A stretch of 39,713 bases of DNA from an uncultured Bacilli bacterium. Lineage in GTDB: Bacteria; Bacillota_I; Bacilli_A; RF39; UBA660. Position numbers and translations under genes: made by a program. Shown piece by piece: positions 1 to 23,603 of this stretch. The notes beneath the pieces are model-generated. The model saw only the letters and a program-made list of their open reading frames with translations. It searched no databases and was not told the DNA's origin. Within the stretch, counting starts at the first letter, position 1; every line of letters begins with the position of its first letter. The stretch covers positions 1-39,713 of the forward strand of contig CALVVO010000006.1 in assembly GCA_944363885.1 (NCBI GenBank), written 5' to 3'.

Positions 1-92
1 TTTAGCCAAACAGTATTATCTTGCAATTTAACTTCTATATTATCATTGCCATTTTTATCTTTATAAATAATTATATTACCATGTTCATCCAT
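1..92 (-). CDS. RhuM-family protein, N-terminal fragment cut by window edge
   Basis: Only the first 30 codons are inside the window. The reading begins MDEHGNIIIYKDKNG and continues through a stretch ending in DNTVWL, the usual N-terminus of RhuM-family proteins (a short beta-rich segment leading into the TVWL..A.LF DNA-binding-like region). An excellent ribosome binding site, GGGAGG, lies on the minus strand at 101-106, which fixes the ATG at 90-92. It closely resembles the N-terminus of the RhuM gene just upstream on the same strand (237-926), so the two form a tandem pair. RhuM proteins occur mostly in accessory islands and near restriction or phage genes; their molecular function is not established. 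Confidence 0.7.
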   Translation of the reverse strand, partial: MDEHGNIIIYKDKNGNDNIEVKLQDNTVWL

Positions 93-240
93 TGTTCTGC
101 CTCCCGTTTTTAATAATTGATACTATAATAGTAAAGTTGTCATCATTCTCTATACTTTTTAATTTATTTAGCATAATATGCTTGTTGTCAAACTTTCCTT
201 TAAAATAAGGCAATTTTATTATTTTTTCATTTCGTGTCAT
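85..240 (-). CDS. Small ORF between the two RhuM genes, 51 aa, unknown
   Basis: A 51-codon frame starts with an ATG that overlaps the TGA of the upstream RhuM gene (ATGA) and ends in a TGA inside the start of the next one, so it would be translationally coupled on both sides. The protein begins MTRNEKIIKLPYFKGKFDNK and is basic, with no recognised domain, signal or membrane segment. There is no separate ribosome binding site. It may be a real coupled mini-gene, or the remains of a longer gene left when the RhuM C-terminus was lost. I do not recognise it. Confidence 0.3.
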   Translation of the reverse strand: MTRNEKIIKLPYFKGKFDNKHIMLNKLKSIENDDNFTIIVSIIKNGRQNNG

Positions 241-926
241 TTGGTACAACTTAGCCAGTTTGTTAGTCCCATATTCTCCTTTTGACTATTAACTATATTG
301 TATATGATTTCTGCTGCAGTATTACCAGTAATAGCATAATGAAATTTATTTTGAATAGTTGAATAAAAATCTTTTACTATATCGCTGTTTTTATCATAAT
401 CAATAGAACACTCAGCAAATATGTCTGTAATTTTTTGATAAAACATTCTCTCACTAGTACGAATTAGACTTATTCTTTCAAGTAATCTTTTAAAATATTC
501 TTGATCAGATTTTCTTGCTTTCATAAATCTATCATCATCAAGTGCAAAACCTTGTATCATATAATCTTTAATTATCTCATTTGCCCAACTTCGAAATTTA
601 ATTGCTTTTTTAGAATTAACCCTAAATCCAATAGAAATAATCATATCTAGATTATAGTATTCTTTTTGTCTTTTAACACTTCGTGTTCCTTCAATTTGAA
701 CTTGTTTCATTTTGGAACAAGTTGATTCTTTACTTAATTCTTCATCATTATATATATTATTTATATGCTTTACAATAGCAGGTCTTTGTACGTTAAAAAG
801 AGTAGCTATTGCATTTACATTTAGCCAAACATTTTCATTTTGCAAGATTACTTCTACTTTAGTTTGTCCATTTTCATCACTATAAAATAAAATATTTTTT
901 TCACTCCCCATTGTTATATTACTCAT
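237..926 (-). CDS. RhuM-family protein, C-terminally truncated
   Basis: 229 residues with the RhuM family layout: a beta-rich N-terminus (NILFYSDENGQTKVEV), the helix-turn-helix-like stretch VWLNVNAIATLFNVQRPAIV, then EYYNLDMIISIGFRVNSKKA and FRSWANEIIKDYMIQGFALD, which are the family's most conserved blocks (around residues 90-130). Family members are usually about 320-340 residues; here the frame stops at GLTNWLSCTK, where homologs continue with a further C-terminal block of roughly 100 residues. It is therefore likely a truncated, possibly non-functional copy. A GAAAGGA ribosome binding site precedes the ATG. The nearest recognisable promoter reading this way is the LexA-like one at 1163-1191, beyond the uvrB fragment. 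Function of the family is unknown; it is typical of accessory regions. Confidence 0.75.
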   Translation of the reverse strand: MSNITMGSEKNILFYSDENGQTKVEVILQNENVWLNVNAIATLFNVQRPAIVKHINNIYNDEELSKESTCSKMKQVQIEGTRSVKRQKEYYNLDMIISIGFRVNSKKAIKFRSWANEIIKDYMIQGFALDDDRFMKARKSDQEYFKRLLERISLIRTSERMFYQKITDIFAECSIDYDKNSDIVKDFYSTIQNKFHYAITGNTAAEIIYNIVNSQKENMGLTNWLSCTK

Positions 927-992
927 TTATTTTGATCCTTTCACACATTAATTTTTTATTGAGATTAACTAATACAAATAAAAGCCACAAAT

Positions 993-1084
993 TTATTTTT
1001 TCCGTTTTTTTAATCCTTCTACAAATTTTTCCATTGCTTGGGGTTGTCGCCACTTGTTTTGTATTTTGATACTAGTTTAAACAT
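993..1084 (-). pseudogene. uvrB: 5' fragment of uvrB (excinuclease ABC subunit B), frameshifted
   Basis: On the minus strand GGAGTG is followed seven bases later by ATG (1082-1084), and the frame reads MFKLVSKYKTSGD; one base later the text continues in another frame as QPQAMEKFVEGLKKRKK and then a stop. Joined across a one-base deletion this is the UvrB N-terminus (family pattern F.L.S.Y.P.GDQP.AI..L..G). Homology ends at about 995; the LLGVTGSGKT Walker region and everything beyond are absent, replaced by unrelated sequence and the RhuM gene. This is a truncated, frameshifted pseudogene that keeps its own promoter and ribosome binding site. The break is either an insertion or recombination event or an assembly junction. 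Identification is by family knowledge, without a search. Confidence 0.8.
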
Positions 1085-1162
1085 TTTTTATCACTCCAAT
1101 TATTAGTTTTTATAAAAGATGTTTTTGTTTAATTTGTTTCTTTTAAGTCTTTTCAATATGTT

Positions 1163-1191
1163 ATTTTACTTTATAAACAAATGTTTGTCAA
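1163..1191 (-). promoter_or_regulatory. SigA-type promoter with LexA-like box, upstream of uvrB fragment
   Basis: On the minus strand TTGACA (1186-1191), a 17-base spacer and TAAAAT (1163-1168) form a near-consensus promoter. The spacer contains the palindrome AAACATTTGTTT (1175-1186), close to the Gram-positive LexA/DinR box GAACATATGTTC in both spacing and half-sites. uvrB is an SOS gene in Bacillus, and the uvrA promoter in this window carries a very similar box in the same position, so LexA control is a reasonable inference. Confidence 0.65.
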
Positions 1192-1200
1192 ATGTTATGT

Positions 1201-1229
1201 TTGACTTTATATTTTTATTATGTTAACAT
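1201..1229 (+). promoter_or_regulatory. serS promoter
   Basis: TTGACT (1201-1206), a 17-base spacer and TAACAT (1224-1229). It stands directly upstream of the T-box leader, divergent from the uvrB-fragment promoter about ten bases away. The same -10 variant, TAACAT, is used by the rpoB promoter here. Confidence 0.55.
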
Positions 1230-1239
1230 TTAATCATCA

Positions 1240-1430
1240 AATGCAGTGAAAAGGGTATGATTAATTATTTGTGTTTTGTAGAGAGTTAGTGGTTGGTGCA
1301 AACTAACAAACGCAATTTTTAGTTTCTTCCTTGAAGCAGAATAGTAAACTATTTCCGGGAGACCGTTATATGTGAATAAGTTAAAGATGGGATGGTACCG
1401 TGCTTTGCACTCCTTGTACCGTCTTTTTTT
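1240..1430 (+). ncRNA. T-box riboswitch leader of serS
   Basis: The 3' part is clear: GATGGTACCGTG at 1391-1402 matches the T-box core (the sequence that pairs with the uncharged tRNA acceptor end), and GATGGTAC pairs with GTACCGTC (1415-1422), followed by a run of T's, giving the alternative terminator. An inner GTGC/GCAC hairpin lies between. The 5' part has the AGAGAG and GGTTGGTG elements typical of Stem I at about 1279-1300. A GAAGCAG segment (1333-1339) could carry AGC (1335-1337) as the Ser specifier codon; that assignment is tentative. The leader should raise serS expression when tRNA-Ser is uncharged. Confidence 0.85.
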
Positions 1431-1478
1431 ATTTTATAAGGTTTTTGGAAAATAATATCTAAAGAAAGGGTGAATGAT

Positions 1479-2765
1479 ATGATAGATATTAATTTGATTA
1501 GGGAAAATAGAGAGTTAGTTAAGGAAAATATTAAAAAGAAGTTTCAAGATGAAAAACTTCCTTTGGTAGATGAAATTTATGAACTTGATGTTAGATTTAG
1601 AGAGGCTAAAAGTAATGCTGATAATTTAAGAAGTGAAAAAAATAAGTTGAGTGATAAAATTGGTGCTTTGATGCGCGAGGGTAAGAAGGATGATGCTGCT
1701 CAAGTTAGAATTGATATTTCTAAAATAGATGATGATATTGAAGAGTATGAGAAAATTGAAGTAGGACTTGAAGAGTTGATTAAAACTAAAATGTTAGATA
1801 TTCCTCAAATAATTGATGATAGTGTTCCAATTGGTAAAGATGATACTGAAAATGTTGAAATTGAAAAGTTTGGAGACCCTGTCGTTCCAAATTATGAAAT
1901 ACCTCATCACGCAGATATTTTTGAAAGTGTTAGTGGTCTAGATAAAGAAAGCGCTGGTAGGGTAAGTGGTAATGGTTTTTATTATTTGATGGGCGATATT
2001 GCAAGACTTCATTCTGCTTTGATTAGTTATGCTAGGGATTTTATGATTGATAAAGGTTTTATTTATTGTCTTCCTCCTTTTATGATTAGAAGTGATGTAG
2101 TAACAGGTGTTATGAGTTTTGAAGAAATGGATAATATGATGTATAAAATTGAAGATGAGGATTTGTATTTAATTGGTACGAGTGAACATTCTATGATTGG
2201 TAAGTTTAAGGGCCAAATTGTTAAAGAGGAAGAACTTCCAATTACTTTGACTTCTTATTCTCCATGTTTTAGAAAAGAAGTTGGATCGCATGGTATTGAG
2301 GAAAGGGGTATTTATAGGGTTCACCAGTTTGAAAAGGAGGAAATGGTTGTTCTTTGTAAGCCTGAAGATGCAATGGATTGGTATAATAAGATGTGGAAAT
2401 TTACTGTTGACTTTTTTAGAAGTTTAGACGTTCCTGTTCGTACTTTAGAATGCTGTAGTGGAGACCTTGCTAATTTGAAAGTTAAGTCTTGTGATATAGA
2501 AGCATGGAGTCCTAGACAACAAAAGTATTTTGAAGTTGGTTCTTGTTCTACTTTAGGTGAAGCTCAAGCGAGAAGGTTGAGTATTAGGATGAAAACTAAG
2601 GATGGTAATAAGTATGTCGCAACTCTTAATAATACTGTTCTTGCAACTCCTAGGGGATTAATTGCTGTGGTTGAAAATAATTATCAAAGTGATGGAAGTA
2701 TTACTGTTCCAGAAGTTTTGGTTCCTTACATGGGCGGAGTTAAAGTTATTAAACCTAAAAAATAA
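1479..2765 (+). CDS. serS: Seryl-tRNA synthetase
   Basis: Charges tRNA-Ser with serine in the cytoplasm. The first 100 residues form the long antiparallel coiled coil that grips the tRNA-Ser variable arm; the class II catalytic core follows, with motif 2 around FRKEVGSHGIEERGIYRVHQ and motif 3 around LNNTVLATPRGLIAVVENN. The length of 428 residues is normal. A GTG lies nine bases upstream at 1470, but the ATG at 1479 gives the standard family start (MIDINLIREN) and sits eight bases after AAGGG, so it is chosen. The gene stands alone behind a T-box. Codon third positions are T-rich with almost no C, unlike the genes after 4200. Confidence 0.97.
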   Translation: MIDINLIRENRELVKENIKKKFQDEKLPLVDEIYELDVRFREAKSNADNLRSEKNKLSDKIGALMREGKKDDAAQVRIDISKIDDDIEEYEKIEVGLEELIKTKMLDIPQIIDDSVPIGKDDTENVEIEKFGDPVVPNYEIPHHADIFESVSGLDKESAGRVSGNGFYYLMGDIARLHSALISYARDFMIDKGFIYCLPPFMIRSDVVTGVMSFEEMDNMMYKIEDEDLYLIGTSEHSMIGKFKGQIVKEEELPITLTSYSPCFRKEVGSHGIEERGIYRVHQFEKEEMVVLCKPEDAMDWYNKMWKFTVDFFRSLDVPVRTLECCSGDLANLKVKSCDIEAWSPRQQKYFEVGSCSTLGEAQARRLSIRMKTKDGNKYVATLNNTVLATPRGLIAVVENNYQSDGSITVPEVLVPYMGGVKVIKPKK

Positions 2766-2821
2766 AATAAAGTAAGTTTTAAAAATTAATAAAGCTCATA
2801 TATTTAAATGAGGTGTATCTA

Positions 2822-3637
2822 GTGAAAAAAACATTTGAATATATTGGCCTTTTAGTTTTAGTAATTTTTAGTTTCTATTACACTGATAAGGTTGTTAAAA
2901 TGGTTAATAAAAATGATCCTTTAATGGAACAAATAGTAAAGTATGCGTCTGTTAATAATTCTTCTTGCATAGAAGGCTATGTAACTGATGAAGGAGTTGT
3001 TCTAGGAGTAAGTGGTTTGGTTGTCGATGAAAACACAAGTTATTCAAACATGAAAGGTTTTGGTTATAATGAAGAGCTTTTCGTTTTTGAAAAGGATACT
3101 TGCTCCATTAATAAAAGAGAATATGTTGATAAATACATTATTAAAGGAAATGAAAGTAAAAATGCTGTTAGTTTGCTAGTACTAGTAGATGATATTAGTT
3201 TAATCAGTTCTGTAAATGATATTGCTTCAAATAAAGGAATTAATTTAAATTATATTGTGAATGGTGAGCTACTCCAGAATAATAAAAATTTGTTTTATGA
3301 TTTAGTTAGTAATGGTAATACTATTTTGTATGGAGGTAATAACAAAGAAGATTTTAATGCTTTTTATAAAATAATTGATGACTTTAAAACAGATACTTTT
3401 TGTGTTTATAACGATTATGATGTAATTGATATTTGTAAAGAAAAAGGAGTTAATTCAGTTAAAACTGATTTTGTTTATAATAAAAATTTTTTGTTAAATA
3501 TTAAAAATACATTAGAAAAAGGTAACATATATATTTTAAAAGGAAATAAATATATTACCAGTGAACTTAGTGGTATTGTAAGTCATATAAACGGTAAAGG
3601 TATTAAAATTTTGCCGTTATATGATTTATTAAATTAA
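2822..3637 (+). CDS. Membrane-anchored, degenerate polysaccharide-deacetylase-like protein
   Basis: 271 residues starting at GTG (2822) behind AGGTG; an upstream GTG at 2813 is inside the ribosome binding site. One membrane segment (about residues 8-23, IGLLVLVIFSFYYTDKVV) anchors the rest outside. The second half follows the NodB (polysaccharide deacetylase) fold in order: LLVLVDDIS where catalytic members have FTFDDG, YIVNGELL for FFVNG, LYGGN where the GHEIGNHS metal motif belongs, CVYNDYDVIDICKEKGV, then NIYILK and IVSHINGKGIKILPLYDLL at the end. The metal-binding His-x3-His and the final catalytic His are missing, so it is probably not an active deacetylase. A binding or scaffold role in the envelope is inference. 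T-rich codons match serS. Confidence 0.6.
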   Translation: MKKTFEYIGLLVLVIFSFYYTDKVVKMVNKNDPLMEQIVKYASVNNSSCIEGYVTDEGVVLGVSGLVVDENTSYSNMKGFGYNEELFVFEKDTCSINKREYVDKYIIKGNESKNAVSLLVLVDDISLISSVNDIASNKGINLNYIVNGELLQNNKNLFYDLVSNGNTILYGGNNKEDFNAFYKIIDDFKTDTFCVYNDYDVIDICKEKGVNSVKTDFVYNKNFLLNIKNTLEKGNIYILKGNKYITSELSGIVSHINGKGIKILPLYDLLN

Positions 3638-3721
3638 TTTTTTTGTAAACTAAATATATTTTTTCAAGTTGTATAGATGTATAGATAATAAAGTATCTGG
3701 AAAATAATACGACTTTTGATT

Positions 3722-3841
3722 TTATTTTGTCGTTAATAAATCTGCAAATTTGTCATCATAGGTATTTATTTCAATGTCAGATAATAAATGCAAAAATTCA
3801 TCTAAACTAATATTGATAATGCCATTTTGTATAAAAAAAAT
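3722..3841 (-). pseudogene. Possible C-terminal gene relic, unassigned
   Basis: A 39-codon open frame without a start codon or ribosome binding site runs on the minus strand and ends in TAA. Its translation, which includes SLDEFLHLLSDIEINTYDDK, looks like ordinary protein sequence rather than random AT-rich translation. I do not recognise the family. It lies beside the transposase relic in a stretch with no intact gene. Confidence 0.2.
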
Positions 3842-3884
3842 TTAATGATACAATTGACTAAATTACTATTGCGTTTTAGTCCTT

Positions 3885-4004
3885 TCAAACAAAGAGTCTG
3901 GTAAAACAATTAATATTCATAGACCTATTTCAAAAATAGGAAATAAATATACGAGAAAATTATTACAGAAAAAAGTAAAAAAGTCATTAATAATTGCAAC
4001 TTAA
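3885..4004 (+). pseudogene. Relic of an IS110-type transposase C-terminus
   Basis: 39 codons without a start, ending in TAA: SNKESGKTINIH followed by RPISKIGNKYTRKLL. This fits the C-terminal transposase_20 pattern of IS110-family elements (..PS..QSG......ISKRG..YLR..L). Upstream the match is lost after a probable frameshift. No ends, target duplication or other transposase domain are visible, so this is a decayed fragment. The assignment rests on pattern memory alone. The rest of 3638-4165 shows no other feature beyond an unassigned minus-strand relic and AT-rich sequence. Confidence 0.4.
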
Positions 4005-4165
4005 TTAAAACTATATTAAACTTCCAAATAAACATATTTATATCAAAATTTAAAGAAATTGATAATTTTGTCTCTTTTTATTTTGTTAATAGCGCATGTA
4101 ATTAATCTATAATTTTTTTCAAAGTATGTTACTTTGTTATATTATAAAAACACAGAATAATTAAT

Positions 4166-4194
4166 TTGACAAACACTCCAATATCCTGTATTAT
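4166..4194 (+). promoter_or_regulatory. Promoter of the DUF308-like membrane protein
   Basis: TTGACA (4166-4171), 17-base spacer, TATTAT (4189-4194), close to the SigA consensus, about 30 bases before the ATG and its AGGAGAG ribosome binding site. Confidence 0.7.
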
Positions 4195-4222
4195 GTATAT
4201 AGAATAAGAGGAGAGTTTAAAA

Positions 4223-4930
4223 ATGGTAAAAGAAGATAAGAAAAGAAATATTATAGAAATTATATTATATATTATACTCATAATAATGGGAATAATTGTA
4301 ATGTCATTTCCTGCTTTTGGTTTGATTAATCCAATATACTATTTAGGAGCGCTTTTTTATATATATGCATTTTTCACAGTTATTGCCTATTTTACATCTC
4401 GAAAAGAAGAAGAGTACGAATTACTGTTTAATTCACTAATAGACATAATTGTTGCTTCATTTTTAATAGCAGTACCAAATGAAAATGCACCGTTTATGTT
4501 AGGCACAGCTATGCTAATATACACATTACTAGTGATAGTTAACAGAGGATTTATAGTATACAAGTATAAAAAGAATGAAAATTACTTATGGATAATAAAA
4601 TTTATCATCACATTTTTAATCGCATTTTTGGGCATTTTAACAATTATAAATTTATATAACGAGCTATCCGTACAAACATTAATTATTGGCTATTATTTTA
4701 TAACATTAGGTGTAATGTTAGTAATTGAACCACTTTTCAAGCTTTTTATAAGTCCTCAAAAATTTAATAAAATTGTGGCAAAAATATTAGAAGAAGATGA
4801 GAAAAGTGAGTCAAAAAAACAAATGACTATAAAAAATAATACTCCAAATAAAGCTAAGAGAATAGTTAAAACAAAAGATATTGTTAAAAGAAAAAGTAGT
4901 GGAAGAAAAAAGACAAAAAGCACAAAATGA
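4223..4930 (+). CDS. Multi-pass membrane protein, DUF308/HdeD-like
   Basis: 235 residues. About six hydrophobic segments fill residues 9-175, arranged as in the HdeD/DUF308 family: paired helices with short loops and the IILIIMGIIVMSFPAF opening typical of that family. The last 55 residues form a highly basic cytoplasmic tail (KRIVKTKDIVKRKSSGRKK) that family members usually lack and that could touch nucleic acid or phospholipid (inference). HdeD-like proteins are tied to acid and general stress in enterobacteria; no function can be assigned here. Single-gene unit with its own promoter and terminator. Confidence 0.6.
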   Translation: MVKEDKKRNIIEIILYIILIIMGIIVMSFPAFGLINPIYYLGALFYIYAFFTVIAYFTSRKEEEYELLFNSLIDIIVASFLIAVPNENAPFMLGTAMLIYTLLVIVNRGFIVYKYKKNENYLWIIKFIITFLIAFLGILTIINLYNELSVQTLIIGYYFITLGVMLVIEPLFKLFISPQKFNKIVAKILEEDEKSESKKQMTIKNNTPNKAKRIVKTKDIVKRKSSGRKKTKSTK

Positions 4931-4940
4931 GTGCTTTTTT
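4915..4940 (+). terminator. Intrinsic terminator
   Basis: AAAAAGCAC pairs perfectly with GTGCTTTTT across a seven-base loop, followed by T's. The stem includes the last codons and the TGA stop lies in the loop of the hairpin. Confidence 0.8.
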
Positions 4941-4986
4941 ATATTATATTTACGATTAGTTACATATATTTAGTAGGAGGAAAAAA

Positions 4987-5250
4987 ATGAATGTAATGAA
5001 AGTAAGAAGCAAAAGCATACCACAAAAAGTAGCCGGAGCATTAGCTAATTTATTTAGAGATAATGAAACTGAAGTTGAAATACAAGTCGTTGGAGCTGGA
5101 GCATTAAACCAAGCAATTAAAGCCATAGCAATAGCGAGAGGGTACTTAGCCACGTCAGGTGTTAACTTAGTGTGTATTCCAGCATTTTCAGACATAAAAA
5201 TTGATGGTGAAGAAAGAACCGCAATAAAACTAATTGTTGAGGCAAAATAG
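4987..5250 (+). CDS. spoVS: Stage V sporulation protein S
   Basis: 87 residues, nearly the whole family length, with the conserved Alba-like SpoVS text: MNVMKVRSKSIPQKVAGALA, then VGAGALNQAIKAIAIARGYL and the ending IKLIVEA. Strong ribosome binding site TAGGAGG. In Bacillus, SpoVS lets sporulation proceed past septation and affects spore coat assembly; small SpoVS proteins bind nucleic acid through an Alba-like fold. SpoVS also occurs in non-sporulating bacteria, so its presence with a SigH-type factor and a SpoVD-like PBP suggests, but does not prove, sporulation. Monocistronic, with its own terminator. Confidence 0.93.
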   Translation: MNVMKVRSKSIPQKVAGALANLFRDNETEVEIQVVGAGALNQAIKAIAIARGYLATSGVNLVCIPAFSDIKIDGEERTAIKLIVEAK

Positions 5251-5259
5251 CCTCTTTTT
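5239..5259 (+). terminator. spoVS terminator
   Basis: GAGGC (5239-5243) pairs with GCCTC (5250-5254) followed by TTTTT. The stem contains the end of spoVS. Confidence 0.75.
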
Positions 5260-5303
5260 AATTATCTAAAAATGTGATATTCTATTAACAGAATAGGTGA
5301 GTT

Positions 5304-5675
5304 ATGAATAAAAAAGGTTTTACATTAATAGAAATAATGATAATTATAGGAATTGTTGCTGTTGTAAGTACTACTGGGACAATATTATTTACTCAAACAT
5401 TAAAACAACTAAACGAAAAAAAATTAGAAGACACAATTGAAGAAATAGAACTAGCGACAGATGTTTATTTTAACAAATATCCATATCTTATGGAAGAATT
5501 ATACCAGGGCTACACTGGTGAAAAAATTTGTACTAGAATTTATAAATTACAAAATGAAGGTTTAATTGACAAAGACATAAAAAATCCTTTAACAAACGAG
5601 CGAATTAGTGGAACACTATGTGTATATTCAACACTCGATGAAAATGGAAATATTAAGCACGAATTTAGTTTATAA
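5304..5675 (+). CDS. Orphan type IV prepilin-like protein
   Basis: 123 residues with a textbook class III prepilin signal: MNKKG^FTLIEIMIIIGIVA, with cleavage expected after Gly5 and Glu at mature position 5, then a 20-residue hydrophobic helix. The C-terminal part is globular, with two cysteines (KICTRI and TLCVYS) that could form a disulphide. It resembles ComGC/pseudopilin subunits in size. No prepilin peptidase, assembly ATPase or other com/pil gene is nearby, so its machinery must be elsewhere. AGGTGAG precedes the ATG; the gene starts 50 bases after the spoVS terminator hairpin. Confidence 0.8.
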   Translation: MNKKGFTLIEIMIIIGIVAVVSTTGTILFTQTLKQLNEKKLEDTIEEIELATDVYFNKYPYLMEELYQGYTGEKICTRIYKLQNEGLIDKDIKNPLTNERISGTLCVYSTLDENGNIKHEFSL

Positions 5676-5689
5676 AAAATAATAAGTTA

Positions 5690-5745
5690 TTGACAATGGC
5701 GAACATTTATTTTATACTTGTATTGTTGTTGTTTTTTTGTATAAT
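5690..5745 (+). promoter_or_regulatory. uvrA promoter region with LexA-like box
   Basis: TTGACA (5690-5695), 17-base spacer, TATACT (5713-5718). The spacer holds CGAACATTTATTT (5700-5712), whose left half is a perfect LexA/DinR half-site and which matches the box upstream of the uvrB fragment at most positions. A second possible promoter overlaps downstream: TTGTAT (5718-5723), 16 bases, TATAAT (5740-5745). Confidence 0.65.
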
Positions 5746-5786
5746 AGTTCCAGTACAAAGCAATATTAATAGTGAGAGGTAAAGTT

Positions 5787-8600
5787 ATGGATAGTATTAT
5801 TATTAGGGGAGCAAGAGAAAATAATTTAAAAAATATAGATATTGAAATACCAAAAAATAAATTAGTCGTAATGACTGGAGTAAGTGGAAGCGGAAAAAGT
5901 AGCTTAGCATTCGACACAATTTATGCAGAGGGCCAAAGAAGATATGTTGAAAGCCTAAGTGCATATGCACGTCAATTTTTAGGAAACATGGAAAAACCAG
6001 ATGTTGATTCAATCGAAGGACTAAGCCCAAGCATAAGTATTGACCAAAAAACTACAAATAAAAACCCAAGAAGTACAGTTGGAACAGTCACAGAAATATA
6101 TGATTATTTAAGATTACTATATGCAAGAATAGGTGTGCCTTATTGCCCTGTGCATAAAAAACCGATTAAAAGTCAAAGCATAGAAGAGATGACAAATAAA
6201 GTTTTATCTTTACCTGAAGACACAAAAATAGAACTTTTAGCGCCAGTAGTAAGGGGAGAAAAAGGCACTCATAAAGAACTATTAGAAGAATTAAAAAAAG
6301 AAGGATTTTCAAGAGCTAGAGTAAATGGTGAAACAATAAGTTTAAGTGAAGACATAAACTTAGAAAAAAACATTAAAGATAATATTGATGTAATAGTTGA
6401 CAGATTAAAAGTTAATGAAAAATCAAGATCTAGAATATTTGAAAGTATTGAAATCTGCACAAAATTAGCAAATGGCAAAGTTGTAATCAATGACATAGAA
6501 AAAAATGAAGAGATGCTAATGAGCGAAAATTATGCATGCCCTGAATGTAATTTTTCTATTGAAGAGCTTGAGCCAAGAATGTTTTCATTCAATTCGCCAT
6601 TTGGAGCGTGTTCTGAATGTAAAGGATTAGGTGTTAAATTAAAGATTGACGAAGACATACTAATTCCTGATAAAACAAAAAGCATAACGAACGGAGCAAT
6701 TAGTTCATTTCAAAGTGGAGACACATTAGCAATGTACTACAAAAAACTAGGTGCAGTTGCAAAATTTTATAATATAGATTTAAATAAACCAGTAAACGAA
6801 TTAACAAGAAGTGAACTCGATACAATACTATATGGATCAAAAGATAAAATAAAATTTTCGTATCAGTCAAAAAGTGGAAGCATACTAAAAAGCAATGATT
6901 ACTTTGAAGGAATAATAACAAACTTAGAGAGAAGATACATGGAAACTTCTTCAAATGCAATTAGAGAATGGATAGAAAGTTATATGACAGAACTTGAATG
7001 TCCAAAGTGCAAAGGCGCTAGACTTGACGAGAGAATTTTAAGCGTAAAAGTTGGAAATAAAAATATACATGAAATATGTGAGATGAGCGTCAAAGAACTA
7101 AAAAAATTTCTTTCAGAGTTAAAATTAACAAACGAACAAAAAGAAATAGCAAACTTAATACTGAAAGAAATCAATGATAGACTAAGCTTTTTGATAAACG
7201 TAGGTCTGGAATATTTAACTTTAAGTAGAAGTGCAGGTACATTATCAGGTGGTGAAAGTCAAAGAATTAGATTAGCAACACAAATTGGAAGCAGATTAAG
7301 TGGAGTATTATACGTATTAGATGAACCAAGTATTGGATTACATCAAAGAGATAATTCAAAATTGATAAACTCACTAAAAGAAATGAGAGACTTAGGTAAC
7401 ACATTAATAGTAGTAGAACACGACTCAGAAACAATGTTAAATGCTGATTATCTAATTGACATTGGACCAGAAGCCGGAGACAAAGGTGGATACGTTGTAG
7501 CAGCAGGGACACCAAAAGAAGTGATGGACAATAAAAATAGTATCACTGGCAAGTATTTAAAAGGTGAAATGAAAATAGATGTACCTAGCAAAAGACGAAA
7601 ACCAAAAAAATATATGACAATTAATGGAGCAAAAGAAAACAATTTAAAGAATATTAATGTAAAAATACCATTAGGAGTTATGACATGCGTAACAGGTGTA
7701 AGTGGAAGCGGAAAAAGCACATTGGTAAATGAGATTTTATATAAAACGCTAGCAAACAAACTTTATAAAAGCAAAGAAAAAGCAGGAAAGTGTAAAAATA
7801 TCAAAGGAATAGAAGAGGTAGACAAAGTAGTACATATATCGCAAGACCCCATTGGAAGAACTCCAAGGAGTAATCCAGCAACGTATGTAGGAGTTTTTGA
7901 TGCAATTAGAGACGTATTTACAGAAACAAAAGAAGCTAAAATTAGAGGCTACAATAAAAGTAGATTTTCATTCAATGTAAAAGGTGGAAGATGCGAAGCA
8001 TGTTGGGGTGACGGCGTAAAAAAAATAGAAATGCATTTTTTGCCAGACGTATACGTACCTTGTGATGTTTGCCATGGAAAGAGATACAATAACGAAACAT
8101 TAAATGTAAAGTTTAAAGGATTAAGCATTGCAGATGTATTAGAACTAAGAGTTGATGAGGCATTAGAAATATTCGAAAACATTCCAAAAGTGAAAAAAGG
8201 ATTAATAACGATGCATGATGTGGGCTTGGGCTATGTCAAACTAGGACAAAATGCAGTTACATTATCAGGTGGAGAAGCTGCAAGAGTTAAATTAGCTAAG
8301 GAACTACAAAAAAGGCCAACTGGTAAAAGCGTTTACATATTAGATGAACCGTCAACTGGTTTACACATACATGATATAAAAAAATTGCTAGAAATATTAC
8401 AGAGAATAGTTGACAATGGTGATACAGTTATCATAATCGAACATAATTTAGACATAATAAAAGTAGCAGATTACATTATAGATTTAGGTCCAGAAGGTGG
8501 GGACCAAGGTGGCACAGTAGTAGCTACTGGAACGCCAGAACAAGTTAGTGAAAACGACAATTCATACACTGGAATATATTTAAAACAAGTTCTAAAATAA
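5787..8600 (+). CDS. uvrA: Excinuclease ABC subunit A
   Basis: Damage-recognition ATPase of nucleotide excision repair; a UvrA dimer loads UvrB on damaged DNA. 937 residues, normal length. Two ABC modules are visible: Walker A GVSGSGKSS near residue 32 and GVSGSGKST near 637, with signatures LSGGESQRIRLA and LSGGEAARVKLA. The first zinc site is CPEC...CSEC, the second GGRCEACWGDG...CDVCHGKRY. GTG at 5772 would add five residues, but the ATG at 5787 lies six bases after GAGAGGT and gives the family start MDSIIIRGARENNLKN. uvrB, often directly upstream of uvrA, is not here; only a uvrB fragment exists at 993-1084. Confidence 0.98.
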   Translation: MDSIIIRGARENNLKNIDIEIPKNKLVVMTGVSGSGKSSLAFDTIYAEGQRRYVESLSAYARQFLGNMEKPDVDSIEGLSPSISIDQKTTNKNPRSTVGTVTEIYDYLRLLYARIGVPYCPVHKKPIKSQSIEEMTNKVLSLPEDTKIELLAPVVRGEKGTHKELLEELKKEGFSRARVNGETISLSEDINLEKNIKDNIDVIVDRLKVNEKSRSRIFESIEICTKLANGKVVINDIEKNEEMLMSENYACPECNFSIEELEPRMFSFNSPFGACSECKGLGVKLKIDEDILIPDKTKSITNGAISSFQSGDTLAMYYKKLGAVAKFYNIDLNKPVNELTRSELDTILYGSKDKIKFSYQSKSGSILKSNDYFEGIITNLERRYMETSSNAIREWIESYMTELECPKCKGARLDERILSVKVGNKNIHEICEMSVKELKKFLSELKLTNEQKEIANLILKEINDRLSFLINVGLEYLTLSRSAGTLSGGESQRIRLATQIGSRLSGVLYVLDEPSIGLHQRDNSKLINSLKEMRDLGNTLIVVEHDSETMLNADYLIDIGPEAGDKGGYVVAAGTPKEVMDNKNSITGKYLKGEMKIDVPSKRRKPKKYMTINGAKENNLKNINVKIPLGVMTCVTGVSGSGKSTLVNEILYKTLANKLYKSKEKAGKCKNIKGIEEVDKVVHISQDPIGRTPRSNPATYVGVFDAIRDVFTETKEAKIRGYNKSRFSFNVKGGRCEACWGDGVKKIEMHFLPDVYVPCDVCHGKRYNNETLNVKFKGLSIADVLELRVDEALEIFENIPKVKKGLITMHDVGLGYVKLGQNAVTLSGGEAARVKLAKELQKRPTGKSVYILDEPSTGLHIHDIKKLLEILQRIVDNGDTVIIIEHNLDIIKVADYIIDLGPEGGDQGGTVVATGTPEQVSENDNSYTGIYLKQVLK

Positions 8601-8613
8601 AAAACTTGTTTTT
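8582..8613 (+). terminator. uvrA terminator
   Basis: AAAACAAGTT (8582-8591) pairs with AACTTGTTTT (8603-8612) around the stop codon, running into T's. The 8614-8840 interval is AT-rich and otherwise holds only the promoter at 8733-8761. Confidence 0.7.
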
Positions 8614-8732
8614 ATTTGCATAATTAACCAAAAACATGTTATACATTCAAGTTATAAAACAAAATTAAATCATGTTCTAACAAATATTAAATAATAAAAA
8701 TAAATACAAAACAAATAATAAAAAATATACAT

Positions 8733-8761
8733 TTGATAAAATATATTACGTATGGTATATT
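8733..8761 (+). promoter_or_regulatory. Promoter of the yvlD-lgt-trxB unit
   Basis: TTGATA (8733-8738), 17-base spacer, TATATT (8756-8761). A further TATAAT at about 8803 may serve as a second -10. It precedes a run of closely packed genes. Confidence 0.45.
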
Positions 8762-8840
8762 CAAATTACTAACAAAATATTTCATAAATAAGTAAAATGA
8801 TATATAATAAATATATATAAAGTAAAAGGAGAAAATAAAG

Positions 8841-9239
8841 ATGATTGAAAAAGTATATGCATATAAAAGTAAAAGCCTAATATTAGAAATGATTTTAGAT
8901 ATAGTTTGTTATGCTTTAATCCTAATGATGGCCTCATCAGTTTTTAATAATATATATGTTGAAAATGTTTGGTACGCACTTTTAGCTAGTATTGTTATAA
9001 GCTTACTTAATTTAACCATAAAACCATTTTTAATCTACATTACACTTCCATTAACAATAATAACTTTAGGAATATTTTATCCTGTAGTTAACATCATAGT
9101 TTTAAAGCTAGCGAGCATACTATTGAGCAGCCATTTTGTTATAAAGGGTTGGTTTACACCATTCTTTATTGCAATATTTATTAGTATTATGAAAATATTA
9201 TTTGAAATTTTTATAATAAAACCAATAGTTGAAAGGTGA
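8841..9239 (+). CDS. YvlD-like membrane protein (phage holin superfamily IV)
   Basis: 132 residues, four hydrophobic segments. The central text TIKPFLIYITLPLTIITLGI is the hallmark of the YvlD/phage_holin_4_2 family (LT.P..I.TLG.F...IN). In Bacillus yvlD lies in a LiaRS/SigW-linked envelope-stress operon; no lytic role is shown for the chromosomal members. Here it is seven bases upstream of lgt and probably co-transcribed with it. Ribosome binding site AAAAGGAG. Function unknown, envelope-related by context. Confidence 0.7.
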   Translation: MIEKVYAYKSKSLILEMILDIVCYALILMMASSVFNNIYVENVWYALLASIVISLLNLTIKPFLIYITLPLTIITLGIFYPVVNIIVLKLASILLSSHFVIKGWFTPFFIAIFISIMKILFEIFIIKPIVER

Positions 9240-9246
9240 GTGAGAT

Positions 9247-10062
9247 ATGAATCCATATGTATTTAAAATAGGCGAATTTGGAATAAAATACTACAGTTTA
9301 TTTATAATGATAGGTGTTATTTTAGTAACATTATGTATGATAAAAGAAGCAAAAAAATTTGGAATAAAAAAAGACTTTATAATTAATCTAATATTTTGGG
9401 CATGCATATTTGGCTTCATTGGAGCTAGACTATATTTTGTAGCTTTTCAGTGGGATTATTACAGTGCTCATTTATCAGAAATATATAAAGTTTGGAATGG
9501 CGGATTGGCAATTCATGGAGGTATAATATTGGGAACAATGGTAATCATAATATATTGCAAGAAGTACAAGGTAAACCCATTATTAATGCTTGATATTGCG
9601 GTTCCATACCTTTTAATAGCGCAAGCATTAGGAAGATGGGGAAATTTCTTTAATGGAGAAGCTTATGGTCCAGCGACTACACTTGGCCACTTAAAAAATC
9701 TATTTATCCCAGATTTTGTAATCAACGGAATGCTAATTGATGGAGTTTATCACATACCTACATTTTATTATGAGTCAATTTGGTGTATTTTAGGAGCAAT
9801 TGTAATATTAATAGTTAGACGCTTAAAATACATTAAAATAGGGCAACAATGTGGATTATACTTAATGTGGTACAGTTTAGGAAGATTTTTTATAGAGAGT
9901 TTAAGAACTGATAGCTTGATGTTGGGCAACTTTAAAGTAGCACAAATAGTAAGTGTAGCTTTGTTTATAATTGGCTTTTTCATAATAATATTTCAAACGA
10001 GAAAGCCAAAGCTAGAAGGATTATATAATAATAAAGAAAAGGTAGAAGTAGTTAACTTTTAA
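9247..10062 (+). CDS. lgt: Prolipoprotein diacylglyceryl transferase
   Basis: Transfers diacylglycerol from phosphatidylglycerol to the lipobox cysteine of prelipoproteins, the first step of lipoprotein maturation. 271 residues with about seven membrane segments. Key motifs are present: GARLYFV (conserved Arg), the HGG motif in GGLAIHGGI, and the signature ALGRWGNFFNGEAYG. The likely substrates include the two lipoproteins at 30032 and 30641. It is in the same transcription unit as the YvlD-like gene and trxB, as lgt often is in Firmicutes. Confidence 0.96.
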   Translation: MNPYVFKIGEFGIKYYSLFIMIGVILVTLCMIKEAKKFGIKKDFIINLIFWACIFGFIGARLYFVAFQWDYYSAHLSEIYKVWNGGLAIHGGIILGTMVIIIYCKKYKVNPLLMLDIAVPYLLIAQALGRWGNFFNGEAYGPATTLGHLKNLFIPDFVINGMLIDGVYHIPTFYYESIWCILGAIVILIVRRLKYIKIGQQCGLYLMWYSLGRFFIESLRTDSLMLGNFKVAQIVSVALFIIGFFIIIFQTRKPKLEGLYNNKEKVEVVNF

Positions 10063-10078
10063 AGAAAGGGTGATATTG

Positions 10079-10987
10079 ATGTACGATGTAATTATTATAG
10101 GAATGGGCCCAGCGGGAATGAATGCCGCCTTGTATGCCAAAAGAAGTGGATTAAATGTTTTGATATTAGAAAAAAGTATCCCAGGAGGTTTAATAAATAT
10201 AACAAACAAAGTAGAAAATTATCTAGGTAATGGGACTTCCACTGGAAAAGAATTAGCTGAAAAAATGTTAGAACATATAAAAAACTTTGATATTGAATAT
10301 AGAAGAGAATCAGTAAGTGAAATAATAAACGAAGAAAAAATAAAAATAGTAAAAACTAATAAATCTGAATATAAAGCAAAAGCATTGATTTTAGCGTCAG
10401 GTAGGGTGCCTAAAAAAGGAAACAGTGAAAAAATAACGAAACTTGAAGGAAAAGGTATAAGCTATTGTGCAGTCTGCGATGCACCATTTTATAAAGATAA
10501 AGTAGTTGGAATAATAGGTGGTGGAAATTCAGCTTTTGACGAAGGGCTATATATATCAGATTTTGCTAAAAAATTATATATGTTTATAAGAAGCGATGAA
10601 ATAAAAGCTGATGAAATATTTGTTAACAAAGCAAAATCAAAAGAAAATATAGAAATACTTTTAAATTCAAATGTAACGGATTTAATAGAAAAAGATGGAA
10701 AACTAAGCGCTGTTGAAATAAATGGAAAAGAAAAAATAGATATAGATGGATTATTTTTATATATAGGATACTCACCAAGTACAAATTACTTTAAGGACTT
10801 AAACATAACAGATGAAACGGGATACATAATAGTGAATGAAAAAATGGAAACAAAAATACCGGGAATATTTGCCGCAGGAGATATAATAAAAAAAGATATT
10901 TATCAAATTATAACTGCTGCGAGTGATGGTAGTATAGCAGCATTAAGTGCAAAAAAATACATAAAAAATCTAGACAAAAATCAATAA
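10079..10987 (+). CDS. trxB: Thioredoxin reductase (or related FAD disulphide reductase)
   Basis: Reduces thioredoxin with NADPH via FAD. 302 residues. FAD-binding GMGPAG at residues 8-13, redox pair CAVC at 130-133, second nucleotide-binding motif GGGNSAFDEG, and the C-terminal FAAGDI FAD motif. AAGGGTG at 10066-10072 precedes the ATG at 10079; GTG at 10070 lies within the ribosome binding site and is rejected. Compared with classical TrxB the NADPH loop (RSDEIKADE) is diverged from the HRR.EFRA pattern, so NADH or another electron donor cannot be excluded. It follows lgt by 16 bases. Confidence 0.9.
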   Translation: MYDVIIIGMGPAGMNAALYAKRSGLNVLILEKSIPGGLINITNKVENYLGNGTSTGKELAEKMLEHIKNFDIEYRRESVSEIINEEKIKIVKTNKSEYKAKALILASGRVPKKGNSEKITKLEGKGISYCAVCDAPFYKDKVVGIIGGGNSAFDEGLYISDFAKKLYMFIRSDEIKADEIFVNKAKSKENIEILLNSNVTDLIEKDGKLSAVEINGKEKIDIDGLFLYIGYSPSTNYFKDLNITDETGYIIVNEKMETKIPGIFAAGDIIKKDIYQIITAASDGSIAALSAKKYIKNLDKNQ

Positions 10988-11022
10988 TTAGTTTATTATA
11001 CAGCAAAAACGGAGGCTATTTT

Positions 11023-11718
11023 ATGTTAGTATATGGGAAAAATGTTGCTAGAGAAGTTTTGAACAAAAGTGACATAGTAAAAAAGGTTTTTTTAAAAGAA
11101 GGCTTTAACAACGAGGAATTATTAAATTTAATTGAAGAAAACAACCATAAAGTAATTTATAAAACAAATGAAGAACTTGACAAATTAGTTAACGAGACAA
11201 CTCAAGGAATAGTAGTTGAAATTGAAGATTATCACTATAAATATTTTGAAGATTTAAAAAAAGATGATGATGCTAACTTTGTAGTTATTCTTGATCACAT
11301 AGAAGACCCAAGAAATTTTGGGGCAATAATAAGAACGTGTGAATGTGCTGGAGTTGATTACATAGTAATTCCTAATAAAAGAAGTGTAGAAATAACAGCC
11401 TCAGTTTTCAAATCATCAAGTGGTGCAGTAGTACATCAAAAGATATGTAAAGTTGCAAACCTACATAATACAATAGAAAAATTAAAGAAAAATGGTTTTT
11501 GGATTATAGGAACTGATGCAAATGGCGAAGACTATACGAGTATAGATTATACAGGCAAAACAGCACTTGTAATTGGCAGTGAAGGAAAAGGATTACAATC
11601 ATTATTAAGAAAATCATGTGATCAAATTGCTTCAATTCCCTTAAAAGGCAAAATTAATAGTTTAAATGCTTCAGTAGCAGCAGGCATAATGATTTATGAA
11701 ATAGCCAAGACCAAATAG
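11023..11718 (+). CDS. rlmB: 23S rRNA 2'-O-methyltransferase, SpoU/TrmH family
   Basis: 231 residues. An N-terminal substrate-binding domain (LVYGKNVAREVL) is followed by the SPOUT methyltransferase domain with motif 1 DHIEDPRNFGAIIRT, motif 2 ALVIGSEGKGL and motif 3 IPLKGKINSLNASVAAGI, the trefoil-knot SAM site. RlmB methylates the ribose of a guanosine in domain V of 23S rRNA (Gm2251 in E. coli). Its place just before sigH and secE-nusG is that of Bacillus yacO/rlmB. Ribosome binding site ACGGAGG. Confidence 0.92.
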   Translation: MLVYGKNVAREVLNKSDIVKKVFLKEGFNNEELLNLIEENNHKVIYKTNEELDKLVNETTQGIVVEIEDYHYKYFEDLKKDDDANFVVILDHIEDPRNFGAIIRTCECAGVDYIVIPNKRSVEITASVFKSSSGAVVHQKICKVANLHNTIEKLKKNGFWIIGTDANGEDYTSIDYTGKTALVIGSEGKGLQSLLRKSCDQIASIPLKGKINSLNASVAAGIMIYEIAKTK

Positions 11719-11728
11719 CAGGAGGAAA

Positions 11729-12349
11729 ATGGTGGAATATGATTTAAAAAAAATAAACGATTATGAGATGCTATTTTTAGTGAACGAAAAGAATGAAAAA
11801 GCTGAAGAAATACTTATTAACAAATACAAAAATCTTATTAATAAATATATTGAAGAGTATAAAAATATTGCAGTACAAAATGGATTAGAGGAATGCGATT
11901 TATATCAAGAAGGATTATTAGGATTAACAAATGCAATAAAAACATTTGATCAAAGCAAAGAAGCGTCATTCTTTACATATGCAAACATATGCATAAAAAC
12001 CAAAATACAAACAGCAATAAGAAATTCATCAAGTAAAAAAAACATAGCATTAAACCAATCAGTCTCTTTAGATAATTTAATTAATTCGGACACGACAAAT
12101 TATTATGACATAATGTGTGATAGTAAAAATGACATAAGTGACAAATTATTAAAACAAGAAGAACAACAACAATTATTTCAAAACATAGAAAAATGCCTTA
12201 CGCCATTTGAAAAGCAAGTGCTAAACTTAAAAGCTAACTCATATTCTAACGATGAAATAGCAAATATGTTGCAAAAAGACAAAAGAAGTATTGAAAACGC
12301 AATTAACAGAATAAGAAATAAATATAGAAATATTAAGAAAGAAGAATAA
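11729..12349 (+). CDS. sigH: RNA polymerase sigma factor, SigH type
   Basis: 206 residues. Region 2 is clear (DLYQEGLLGLTNAIKTFD, then FFTYANICIKTKIQTAI, the core-binding and -10 recognition part) and region 4 is a helix-turn-helix at the C-terminus (LTPFEKQVLNLKANSYSNDE). Region 3 is short, as in the SigH/Spo0H family. In Bacillus sigH sits between rlmB/yacP and rpmG-secE-nusG, the same place as here, and starts sporulation and competence gene expression. With spoVS and the orphan prepilin in the window, either role is plausible. GGAGG precedes the ATG ten bases after rlmB. Confidence 0.88.
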   Translation: MVEYDLKKINDYEMLFLVNEKNEKAEEILINKYKNLINKYIEEYKNIAVQNGLEECDLYQEGLLGLTNAIKTFDQSKEASFFTYANICIKTKIQTAIRNSSSKKNIALNQSVSLDNLINSDTTNYYDIMCDSKNDISDKLLKQEEQQQLFQNIEKCLTPFEKQVLNLKANSYSNDEIANMLQKDKRSIENAINRIRNKYRNIKKEE

Positions 12350-12353
12350 ATAC

Positions 12354-12407
12354 TTGAAAGTTCATATAAAATATGCTAATATGTATGTACACGCAAGTGT
12401 TTTTTTT
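12354..12407 (+). promoter_or_regulatory. secE-nusG promoter with short hairpin in its leader
   Basis: TTGAAA (12354-12359), 17-base spacer, TAATAT (12377-12382). Right after the expected start site, ACAC-gcaa-GTGT (12389-12400) is followed by a run of T's (12401-12407). The stem is only four pairs, so it is a weak candidate attenuator. Confidence 0.55.
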
Positions 12408-12419
12408 ATGGGAGGTAAA

Positions 12420-12599
12420 ATGAAAAAAATCAAGGCATTTTTTAGAGGCGTAAAAAAAGAAGCACAGAAAACTAAATGGTTAACAATGAAAGAGACAATA
12501 ACATACTCCGTTGTAGTTGTAGTAATGCTAGTATTCTTTGCTGCATTCTTTTATGGATTAGATGTACTATTTGCTTTTTTGAAAGGATTGATTAACTAA
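12420..12599 (+). CDS. secE: Preprotein translocase subunit SecE
   Basis: 59 residues, the usual size for Gram-positive SecE. A basic amphipathic helix (FFRGVKKEAQKTKWLTMKET) holds the conserved KE..K..W.....T pattern, followed by a single membrane span. Clamps SecY in the protein-conducting channel. GGGAGG precedes the ATG; longer in-frame starts upstream lie within the promoter and are rejected. The stop overlaps the nusG start (TAATG). rpmG, usual between sigH and secE in Bacillus, is absent. Confidence 0.95.
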   Translation: MKKIKAFFRGVKKEAQKTKWLTMKETITYSVVVVVMLVFFAAFFYGLDVLFAFLKGLIN

Positions 12600-13138
12600 T
12601 GGAAGAACAAAAATTATGGTATGTAGTAAATACATATTCAGGACATGAAAGTAAAGTAAGAGACAACTTACTTATGAGAGCACAGTCAATGGGAATGGAA
12701 AACAACATTTTTAGAGTAATTGTTCCAGAGCAAAAGGAAGTTGAAATAAAAGATGGAGTAAAAAAAGAAAAAATTAAAAAAATGTTTCCTGGATACGTAT
12801 TAGTAGAAATGATAATGAGCGATGAAGCTTGGTATGCAGTAAGAAATACTCCAGGCGTAACAGGATTTATTGGTTCAAGCGGAAAAGGCGCAAAACCTAT
12901 TCCATTATCACCACAAGAAATAGATAAGATTCTAATCAATGAAGGAATGAGTAGAGTAGACATAGAAGCAGACTTAAAAGAAGGAGACAGCGTTACAATT
13001 ATAGATGGACCATTTAAAGGAATGTACGGAAAAATAGAAAGCATAGATTTAGAAAACAACAAATTAACTGTATTAATAGACTTATTCGGGCAAGAAACAC
13101 CTGTTGAAGTTGAATTATTGCAAATAAGTAAAAATTAA
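12599..13138 (+). CDS. nusG: Transcription termination/antitermination protein NusG
   Basis: 179 residues: NGN domain at the N-terminus (WYVVNTYSGHESKVRDNL, then MFPGYVLVEM and TPGVTGFIG) and a C-terminal KOW domain (KEGDSVTIIDGPFKGMYGKI). Binds RNA polymerase and links it to ribosome S10 or Rho. Translationally coupled to secE by a one-base overlap. The promoter at 13139-13167 begins at its stop codon, so rplK can be transcribed separately. Confidence 0.97.
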   Translation: MEEQKLWYVVNTYSGHESKVRDNLLMRAQSMGMENNIFRVIVPEQKEVEIKDGVKKEKIKKMFPGYVLVEMIMSDEAWYAVRNTPGVTGFIGSSGKGAKPIPLSPQEIDKILINEGMSRVDIEADLKEGDSVTIIDGPFKGMYGKIESIDLENNKLTVLIDLFGQETPVEVELLQISKN

Positions 13139-13167
13139 TTGTAAAACCGAAAAAAATGTGTTAATAT
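13139..13167 (+). promoter_or_regulatory. rplK-rplA promoter
   Basis: TTGTAA (13139-13144), 17-base spacer, TAATAT (13162-13167), directly after nusG and about 110 bases before rplK, leaving room for a structured leader. Confidence 0.5.
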
Positions 13168-13203
13168 TAAAAACGAGTTATATATTTTAATATATATACT
13201 AAA

Positions 13204-13262
13204 AAAGTGGGAGATTTTTTGGGTTATCATTAAAACCACTCGCGAAAAAATAAACTGATAAA
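13204..13262 (+). promoter_or_regulatory. Candidate L1/L11 ribosomal-protein leader
   Basis: AGTGG (13206-13210) can pair with CCACT (13236-13240), enclosing GAGATTTTTTGGGTTATCA. A GTGGGAG...CCAC arrangement upstream of rplK recurs in Firmicutes and resembles the L1-binding helix of 23S rRNA, so autogenous control by L1 is possible. Pairing is short and this remains a candidate. Confidence 0.35.
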
Positions 13263-13277
13263 TAGGAGGTGTTTTTC

Positions 13278-13880
13278 GTGGCAAAAAAAGTTGAAAAAGT
13301 AATCAAATTACAACTACCTGCAGGTAAAGCAACACCAGCTCCACCAGTTGGTACAATGTTAGGACCTGTTGGAATAAACTTAAATGAATTCTGTACAAAA
13401 TACAACGATGCGACAAAAGACAAAATGGGAAGTATAGTTCCAGTTGAAATCAGCGTATATGAAGATAGATCATTTGACTTTATTTTAAAAACTCCACCAA
13501 CTCCAAGTTTATTACTTGAAGTGGCTGGAATACAAAAAGGTAGTGTTAAAGGAGCAAATGACATAGTTGCAACAATAACAAAAGACGATTTAAGAAAGAT
13601 AGCTGAAATAAAATTACCAGACTTAAATACAAATGATATTGAAGCAGCGATGAGAATAGTTGCAGGAACAGCAAGAAACATGGGAATTGCTGTTAAAGGA
13701 TTAAATGATGCGGAATTAGCAGAACAAGCTGAAGAAGCAAAAGAAGCTGAAGCAGAAATGGCTAAATTAGATGCAGAACTTGAACAGATGGAAGCACAAG
13801 CTAAAGCAATGGCTGATGCAGATATGCCAGAAGTAGAATCAACAGAACAAAAAGACGAAAATGAAACAAGCGAGGAATAA
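13278..13880 (+). CDS. rplK: 50S ribosomal protein L11 with acidic C-terminal tail
   Basis: Stalk-base protein that binds 23S rRNA and the translational GTPases. Starts at GTG 13278 ([18 protein letters not shown]), after TAGGAGGTG; the GTG at 13269 is inside the ribosome binding site. Residues 1-141 are an ordinary L11, with [20 protein letters not shown] and the RNA-binding C-domain ending [12 protein letters not shown]. Residues 142-200 are an added tail with 22 acidic and 4 basic residues, rich in Ala/Glu and likely helical. Such a tail is not part of normal L11. It is in frame with no sign of an error; rplA follows 35 bases later with its own ribosome binding site. Confidence 0.97.
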
Positions 13881-13915
13881 TAAATCCAAAATACACCACA
13901 TAAAGGAGGAAAAAA

Positions 13916-14611: not shown

Positions 14612-14629
14612 ATAAAAATATAATACAAT
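14601..14629 (+). promoter_or_regulatory. rplJ-rplL promoter, inside the end of rplA
   Basis: TTGACA (14601-14606) is formed by the last codons of rplA; 17-base spacer; TACAAT (14624-14629). It is close to consensus and immediately upstream of the L10 leader. Confidence 0.75.
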
Positions 14630-14631
14630 AT

Positions 14632-14720
14632 TGAAGAAGAACCGAAGACAGTAGGTCAAAAGTAAACCCTACCGAGGAACTTATCTTTTAAGTAAGCTCA
14701 CTCGTGTATGGTGAGCTTTA
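14632..14720 (+). ncRNA. L10 leader (autoregulatory mRNA element of rplJ-rplL)
   Basis: GAAGAACCGAAGACAGTAGG and the partner CCCTACCGAGG (14668-14678) match the L10 leader: GTAGG pairs with CCTAC and the flanking GA-rich bases form the kink-turn bound by L10(L12)4. Downstream, AGCTCAC pairs with GTGAGCT (14695-14717), the hairpin that would sense binding. Excess L10-L12 complex should reduce expression of rplJ-rplL. Confidence 0.85.
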
Positions 14721-14740
14721 ATAATTATAAGGAGGAAAAA

Positions 14741-15609: not shown

Positions 15610-15617
15610 ATTAAAAT

Positions 15618-15640: not shown

Positions 15641-15662
15641 GCGTTTATAAAAAGGGGATAAT

Positions 15663-23602: not shown

Positions 23603-23603
23603 A

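Follow-up and report, generated by a model that had tools for sequence, protein, structure and literature searches.

Across a short gene-poor gap near the left end of the contig studied here, the choice of synonymous codons changes abruptly while the direction of the genes does not, and the question is what such a step marks in the chromosome. The window, that is, the whole stretch of DNA analysed (39,713 nucleotides), is the entire contig C6 of the source assembly, which comprises 905,355 bases in 48 contigs and is 94% complete. A diverged repeat family (about 70-82% identical) lies at the end of contig C1 and at the starts of C2, C15, C18, C34 and C39, and these contig-end repeats are probably in part responsible for the fragmented assembly. 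The first-pass annotation, which recorded the step, offered an inversion, a replichore boundary or a chimeric contig as its meaning. The features of the window are as follows.

1..3784, no strand assigned: serS block, with the RhuM-like gene, serS and an ORF (from Pfam, congener neighbours and third positions)
237-926, minus strand: RhuM-like gene of the RhuM family PF13310, inside the serS block (from Pfam)
1470..2765, plus strand: serS, seryl-tRNA synthetase, with one full-length match in the source genome
2813-3637, plus strand: ORF in the serS block, with G/T-biased third positions
3785..4157, no strand assigned: species-specific join, without a long match in five congeners
3861..4001, plus strand: scrap of an IS110-family transposase (from its translation and PF02371, E 1.8e-4)
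4158..39713, plus strand: A/C-biased coding block (from Pfam, third positions and congener neighbours)
16351..23579, plus strand: rpoB and rpoC, A/C-biased here and G/T-biased on the other arm in the genus G018
26438-26514, minus strand: tRNA-Arg, within the window

The right-hand block encodes a DUF308-like protein, spoVS, an ORF with an N-methylation motif, uvrA, lgt, rplA, rpoB, rpoC, an argS-like gene, a Mur ligase and others. Related copies of the RhuM-family gene are found elsewhere in the congeners. The Rfam scan of the window found the tRNA and a ribosomal protein L10 leader (RF00557, 14624-14731, barely over the gathering score); what we take by eye to be a T-box-like leader upstream of serS (1290-1440) was below the gathering score in the same scan. 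The earlier statement that all genes lie on the plus strand needs correction, the RhuM-like gene and the tRNA-Arg being on the minus strand.

The composition break itself is real, as first observed. The hand counts of third positions in the first 50 codons were exact, with T 25, A 16, G 9 and C 0 for serS (counted from the ATG at 1479) and A 29, T 7, C 7 and G 7 for rpoB (from 16351). The reported switch of isoleucine codons from ATT to ATA was true for all seven genes tested, two on the left of the gap and five on the right; the ATT/ATA counts were 31/5 in serS and 19/5 in the ORF at 2813, and 14/22 in the ORF at 4223, 30/45 in uvrA, 31/53 in rpoB and 33/62 in rpoC. In the serS block, both serS and the ORF at 2813-3637 have a G/T bias of third positions on the coding (plus) strand. 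The maximum-likelihood change point, searched from 1470 to 8600, was position 3628, at the edge of the gap, where the G+T fraction falls from 0.68 to 0.37 (2dlnL 174.5). Among 310 same-direction junctions of two and three genes throughout the genome, the step of the window (-0.59) was the largest (sd 0.11; runner-up, -0.35). A scan for sign flips in the 27 contigs that are 12 kb or longer placed the window second (z 14.4) after C12 (z 21.3), and detected four weaker flips in C1, C15, C23 and C24, all close to contig ends. The transposase fragment with which the break was said to coincide does sit in the gap, as the IS110-family scrap; its PF02371 match lies above the Pfam cut-off.

Comparison with five congeners (G001 to G005) indicated what happened at the gap. 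In all five, serS adjoins sequence that matches the source contig C2 at about 18185 (on contigs C10, C35, C3, C22 and C57 of G001 to G005, respectively), and in G003 this place continues to the match of C2:18636 past serS and part of the source contig C39. On the left, no congener match to the window extends past 3784, and on the right the matches start at 4158-4161, leaving 373 bases between them (3785..4157), for which no second copy was found in the source genome. The sequence at 4158-9000 lies elsewhere in four of the five: from 4158 onward its left neighbour is source contig C38 in G003 and G004 and a different sequence in G005; in G002 the match breaks off at 4903, close to the end of a contig, and G001 has no long match to this part. 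The rearrangement suggested by the first-pass annotation is thus supported, and the break is most likely a recent, species-specific join of two chromosome halves. By this reading, the serS block, ancestrally among co-oriented G/T-biased genes, would have moved to abut the A/C-biased block. Both joined blocks share their direction, and therefore the direction of the genes is unbroken while the composition jumps. A second join peculiar to the source genome, with the same kind of composition flip, occurs in C12 (about 9847-9894), beside a gene whose C-terminus presumably, as read by eye, is that of AsnS. G003 has a paired exchange of its own between the same two composition classes (C2 at about 13.9 kb with C6 at about 12.34 kb), both junctions of which were seen.

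A chimera of two unlinked pieces made during assembly would account for the step as well. The genome is in 48 contigs, no congener carries the join, and C12 (about 9850-9890) shows the same kind of source-only join with the same kind of flip. However, the source contig C2 is unbroken across the ancestral serS place (C2:18185 to 18636) without serS, other sequence filling it, and serS, an essential gene, has a single full-length match in the genome, so that serS has to have changed place, barring a misjoin in C2 itself at this point. A move associated with a mobile element would also be expected to leave what the join shows, an unchanged gene direction and a transposase scrap. The absence of serS from its ancestral place in C2 makes a true move the likelier reading, and we regard a chimera as rather unlikely. 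An IS30-like identity of the filler (C2:18188-18636) was considered and dropped, since its Pfam matches were all below the cut-off, the best IS-related one being the IS1 DDE domain (E 0.031).

The rearrangement would explain where the two compositions meet, and the step is visible in the window because of a larger state of synonymous bias throughout the chromosome. In the source genome, G/T-biased genes add up to 386 kb and A/C-biased genes to 417 kb, two classes of similar extent, and the bias goes with the strand: of 110 adjacent gene pairs facing opposite directions, 97 share the sign of plus-strand polarity at third positions. It also follows the arm. We compared the source genome with G018, a second genus of the same family whose orthologues have a median identity of 48%, and tabulated the bias for 347 of 385 reciprocal best hits; the part of G018 that was read amounts to 889 kb of about 991 kb, 72 kb of it masked, with 100 kb unread and the contig joins unseen. 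Of 275 orthologues with the local-majority direction in both genomes, 104 carry opposite bias in the two, and among the 309 of 385 with a clear local orientation and at least 120 codons, 16 changed direction relative to their neighbours, the other 293 keeping their status; so most of the rearrangement consists of symmetric exchange between the arms. The strand bias is ongoing. With G004 as the outgroup and one region per class, T>C exceeded A>G in the A/C-coding region (121/842 against 95/1195, p 5e-6), and A>G exceeded T>C in the G/T-coding region (77/345 against 49/582, p 5e-9). In the serS block, where counts were small, no clear excess of either was found, and C>T and G>A substitutions were few and gave no consistent picture.

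These results bear on the reading that the change reflects gene-specific codon choice or expression, which the first-pass annotation had named as its refutation and for which the highly expressed genes on the right-hand side might speak. The rpoBC orthologues in G018 are on the other arm and G/T-biased, opposite-facing neighbours keep their polarity, and the polarised substitution bias reverses between the coding classes; strand and arm, not the gene, set the bias, and we give this reading almost no credence. The related suggestion that rpoBC could lie on a lagging-type strand holds for composition but not for cause, rpoBC being co-oriented with its block.

The bias was also examined at the origin and the terminus. 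The gene dnaA, whose position had been proposed as a check, lies at C4:18742-20136, away from the break. The best dif-like site (C1:42552) scored 29.0, against a maximum of 19.2 in 10 Markov genomes with weights taken from known dif sites, and falls in a 60-base gap between convergent genes. An origin, terminus or dif at the window break, as the idea of a replichore boundary would require, is rejected by these positions and by the absence of the break from all five congeners. Genes diverge at dnaA in the source C4 and in G018 C6, and converge at dif on the source C1. The synonymous bias does not follow them: there is no flip at dnaA in the source C4, G001 or G018, and none at dif in the source C1, where polarity is unchanged at 42.5 kb. 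The cumulative third-position walks climb through dnaA (source C4, G018) and descend through dif (source C1) without a break. The contigs of G018 divide by their bias in the coding direction: G/T on C1 (298 kb) and on the 120 of 221 kb read from C5, A/C on C6 (with dnaA), C3, C2 and C4. The source C4 bridges the end of G018 C6 and the beginning of G018 C1, so that about 458 kb around the G018 origin have one polarity. The best dif-like site of G018, found with the same weights, is at a contig end (C3:148), on a contig other than that of dnaA. At four-fold sites of outward genes, GC4 and TA4 were -0.17 and -0.18 on the left arm of G018 and +0.49 and +0.14 on the right; on the source C1 the corresponding GC/TA values were -0.20/-0.39 left of dif and +0.29/+0.24 right of it, and on the source C4 alone GC was null (+0.02, +0.03) and TA clear. 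As a control, the dif region of E. coli K-12 showed no clear skew flip at the 50-kb scale. One strand is G/T-rich through both dnaA/oriC and dif, for the stretches read.

For an origin that had moved, with the skew axis passing through the C12 and window breaks and rotated off the dnaA-dif axis, speaks the fit of the four boundary types of the source assembly (C4, C6, C1, C12) to a consistent circle. Both breaks are, however, absent from all five congeners, and G018 shows no flip within stretches of 298, 220 and 160 kb, the one flip found there being weak and within C5, 3 kb short of the contig end. Relocation of the origin to the breaks in C6 and C12 is accordingly disfavoured and, in our judgement, improbable.

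Raw GC skew behaves otherwise: it flips at both dnaA and dif, since first codon positions hold more G than C whichever way a gene points, and a standard raw GC-skew plot of the source genome would look ordinary. Between genes, GC skew has a positive sign in the direction of transcription whichever arm is taken, with somewhat lower values on the A/C arm, and intergenic TA skew changes sign between the arms. In a regression with a separate coding intercept, a two-fork term and a fixed-strand (unipolar) term, the unipolar logit for G:C was 0.55+-0.02 in the source and 0.63+-0.02 in G018 (T:A, 0.41 and 0.22), and the two-fork-type term was 0.18 and 0.19 (T:A, -0.08 and -0.07).

Judging from composition, one fork most likely copies most of the chromosome. 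The two arms joined in the window would differ since the synonymous-site bias does not reverse at dnaA/oriC or dif: if one dominant fork copied most of the circle, the second being missing, late or blocked, one strand would nearly always be the leading strand, and in a genome of less than 1 Mb a single fork might cost little time. The two-arm gene order, the opposite dif and the symmetric exchanges would then be an inherited framework, kept perhaps by inertia or by an FtsK/dif constraint. Such a fork would explain the fixed leading strand, the occurrence of both polarities and the lability of the state. The combined account, in which the window join is a rearrangement and the chromosome-wide bias comes from mainly unidirectional replication off the DnaA origin, is one we hold with slightly more confidence than doubt.

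The counterpoint is the dif-like site opposite dnaA, and the intact two-arm framework as a whole (opposite dif, rRNA and tRNAs without preference, symmetric exchanges) is unexplained by a single fork. No preference is evident among the tRNAs (16/15 in the source, 16/12 in G018), and the only 16S match, in G018, points outward on the A/C strand, where it would meet head-on a fork whose leading strand is G/T. Genes of the minority direction are equally frequent in both classes (46 and 41 in the source; 33 and 29 in G018). The outward direction of genes is thus kept as strictly on one arm as on the other, which gives no hint of selection for a single fork. The flip of raw GC skew at dnaA and dif, the intergenic GC skew and the small two-fork-type term likewise tell against a single fork, and so does the null four-fold GC result on the source C4. 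Ordinary two-fork replication, with the bias arising from another strand-fixed process such as fork-specific polymerase use, strand-biased repair or single-strand transfer, would accommodate the dif opposite dnaA, the equal outward bias, the symmetric exchanges and the outward rRNA, as well as the two-fork-type term that remains, in which G exceeds C and A exceeds T, as is usual for purines on Firmicutes leading strands. Against it, the two-fork term reaches about a third of the unipolar one, and apart from fork direction we know of no process that would mark a single strand all round a circular chromosome. This explanation seems to us unlikely but deserving of weight.

To see how the unipolar state is distributed, we fetched 80 named dnaA loci; the named relatives are MAGs of uncultured Bacilli, Bacillales, Tenericutes, Erysipelotrichaceae and, in one case, Clostridia. 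The dnaA-flank score was obtained for 69 of 83 loci, 14 with fewer than 500 codons on a side being dropped (among them L168 and L175); each locus shows at most 10 kb per side, so that an origin displaced farther is possible there, except within the read part of G018. One analysis of the fetched loci took 60 of the 80, 14 as family-like and 46 as controls; L179, grouped as family-like at first, fell outside the clade in the tree. In 54 control loci the outward genes of the two sides agreed on average (keto difference, mean -0.03, sd 0.07). The difference was +0.40 in the source, +0.47 in G001, +0.31 in G018 and +0.21 to +0.38 in four more relatives, and -0.21 and -0.39 in two others. The DnaA clade of the source genome (16 rows, 14 scored) includes seven loci unipolar in the source sense, two mirror and five conventional; these states are interspersed in the DnaA tree, several deep forks of which are weak. 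The unipolar state may thus have arisen in both directions among relatives. No oriC feature separating unipolar from conventional relatives was seen in DnaA-box layout or gap sizes. Two loci of Clostridia MAGs, L232 (keto -0.27; GC3 -0.82) and L229 (keto -0.14; GC3 -0.72), were kept in the control mean; they may represent a separate occurrence of the mirror state in a group other than Bacilli. That several small-genome Bacilli lineages replicate the main chromosome with essentially a single fork from the DnaA origin, set repeatedly in both senses while the two-arm order and the opposite dif persist, we think plausible, if slightly short of an even chance.

Replication of the main chromosome by two forks is treated as the rule in bacteria. 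If replication here is by a single fork, ordinary GC-skew plots miss the state, first codon positions mimicking the two-fork pattern, and a survey by raw GC skew would not have flagged the source genome. For AT-rich reduced genomes this is a warning that raw GC skew can mislead, as can growth-rate estimates built on two forks. A family with differing polarity would make it possible to separate the part that forks play in gene orientation, dif position and symmetric inversions from the part of other constraints.

A literature search, with preprints and most subscription journals outside its scope, gave no precedent for a unidirectional main chromosome. In the part of PMC7858055 available, 77 unidirectional replicons are predicted among 16,103 from raw GC skew, mainly secondary replicons, with the mode of chromids shown by read depth; in that of PMC13342612, every profiled chromosome is bidirectional by read depth. 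As far as the former text goes, the Pseudoalteromonas chromids resemble the present case in carrying skew of a single sign round a large replicon, here at synonymous sites, and in differing modes among related strains, but they are secondary replicons with a RepA-type initiator, dif near the origin and calls from raw GC skew. The source genome has a DnaA-type main chromosome with dif opposite dnaA, between convergent genes at C1:42552 (in G018, at C3:148) and not beside the origin; its third and four-fold positions show skew of one sign in the stretches read, and its raw GC skew flips at dnaA and dif. Vertebrate mitochondrial DNA, replicated by strand displacement, likewise has a fixed strand-composition bias that the accessible part of PMC3269012 attributes to asymmetric replication, although the replication system is another. 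With the conventional two-fork chromosome of Bacilli, the source genome shares an origin of the dnaA-dnaN type with DnaA boxes, outward genes on both arms that diverge at dnaA and converge at dif, and raw GC skew that flips at both points; it differs in its synonymous-site skew, which reverses at neither.
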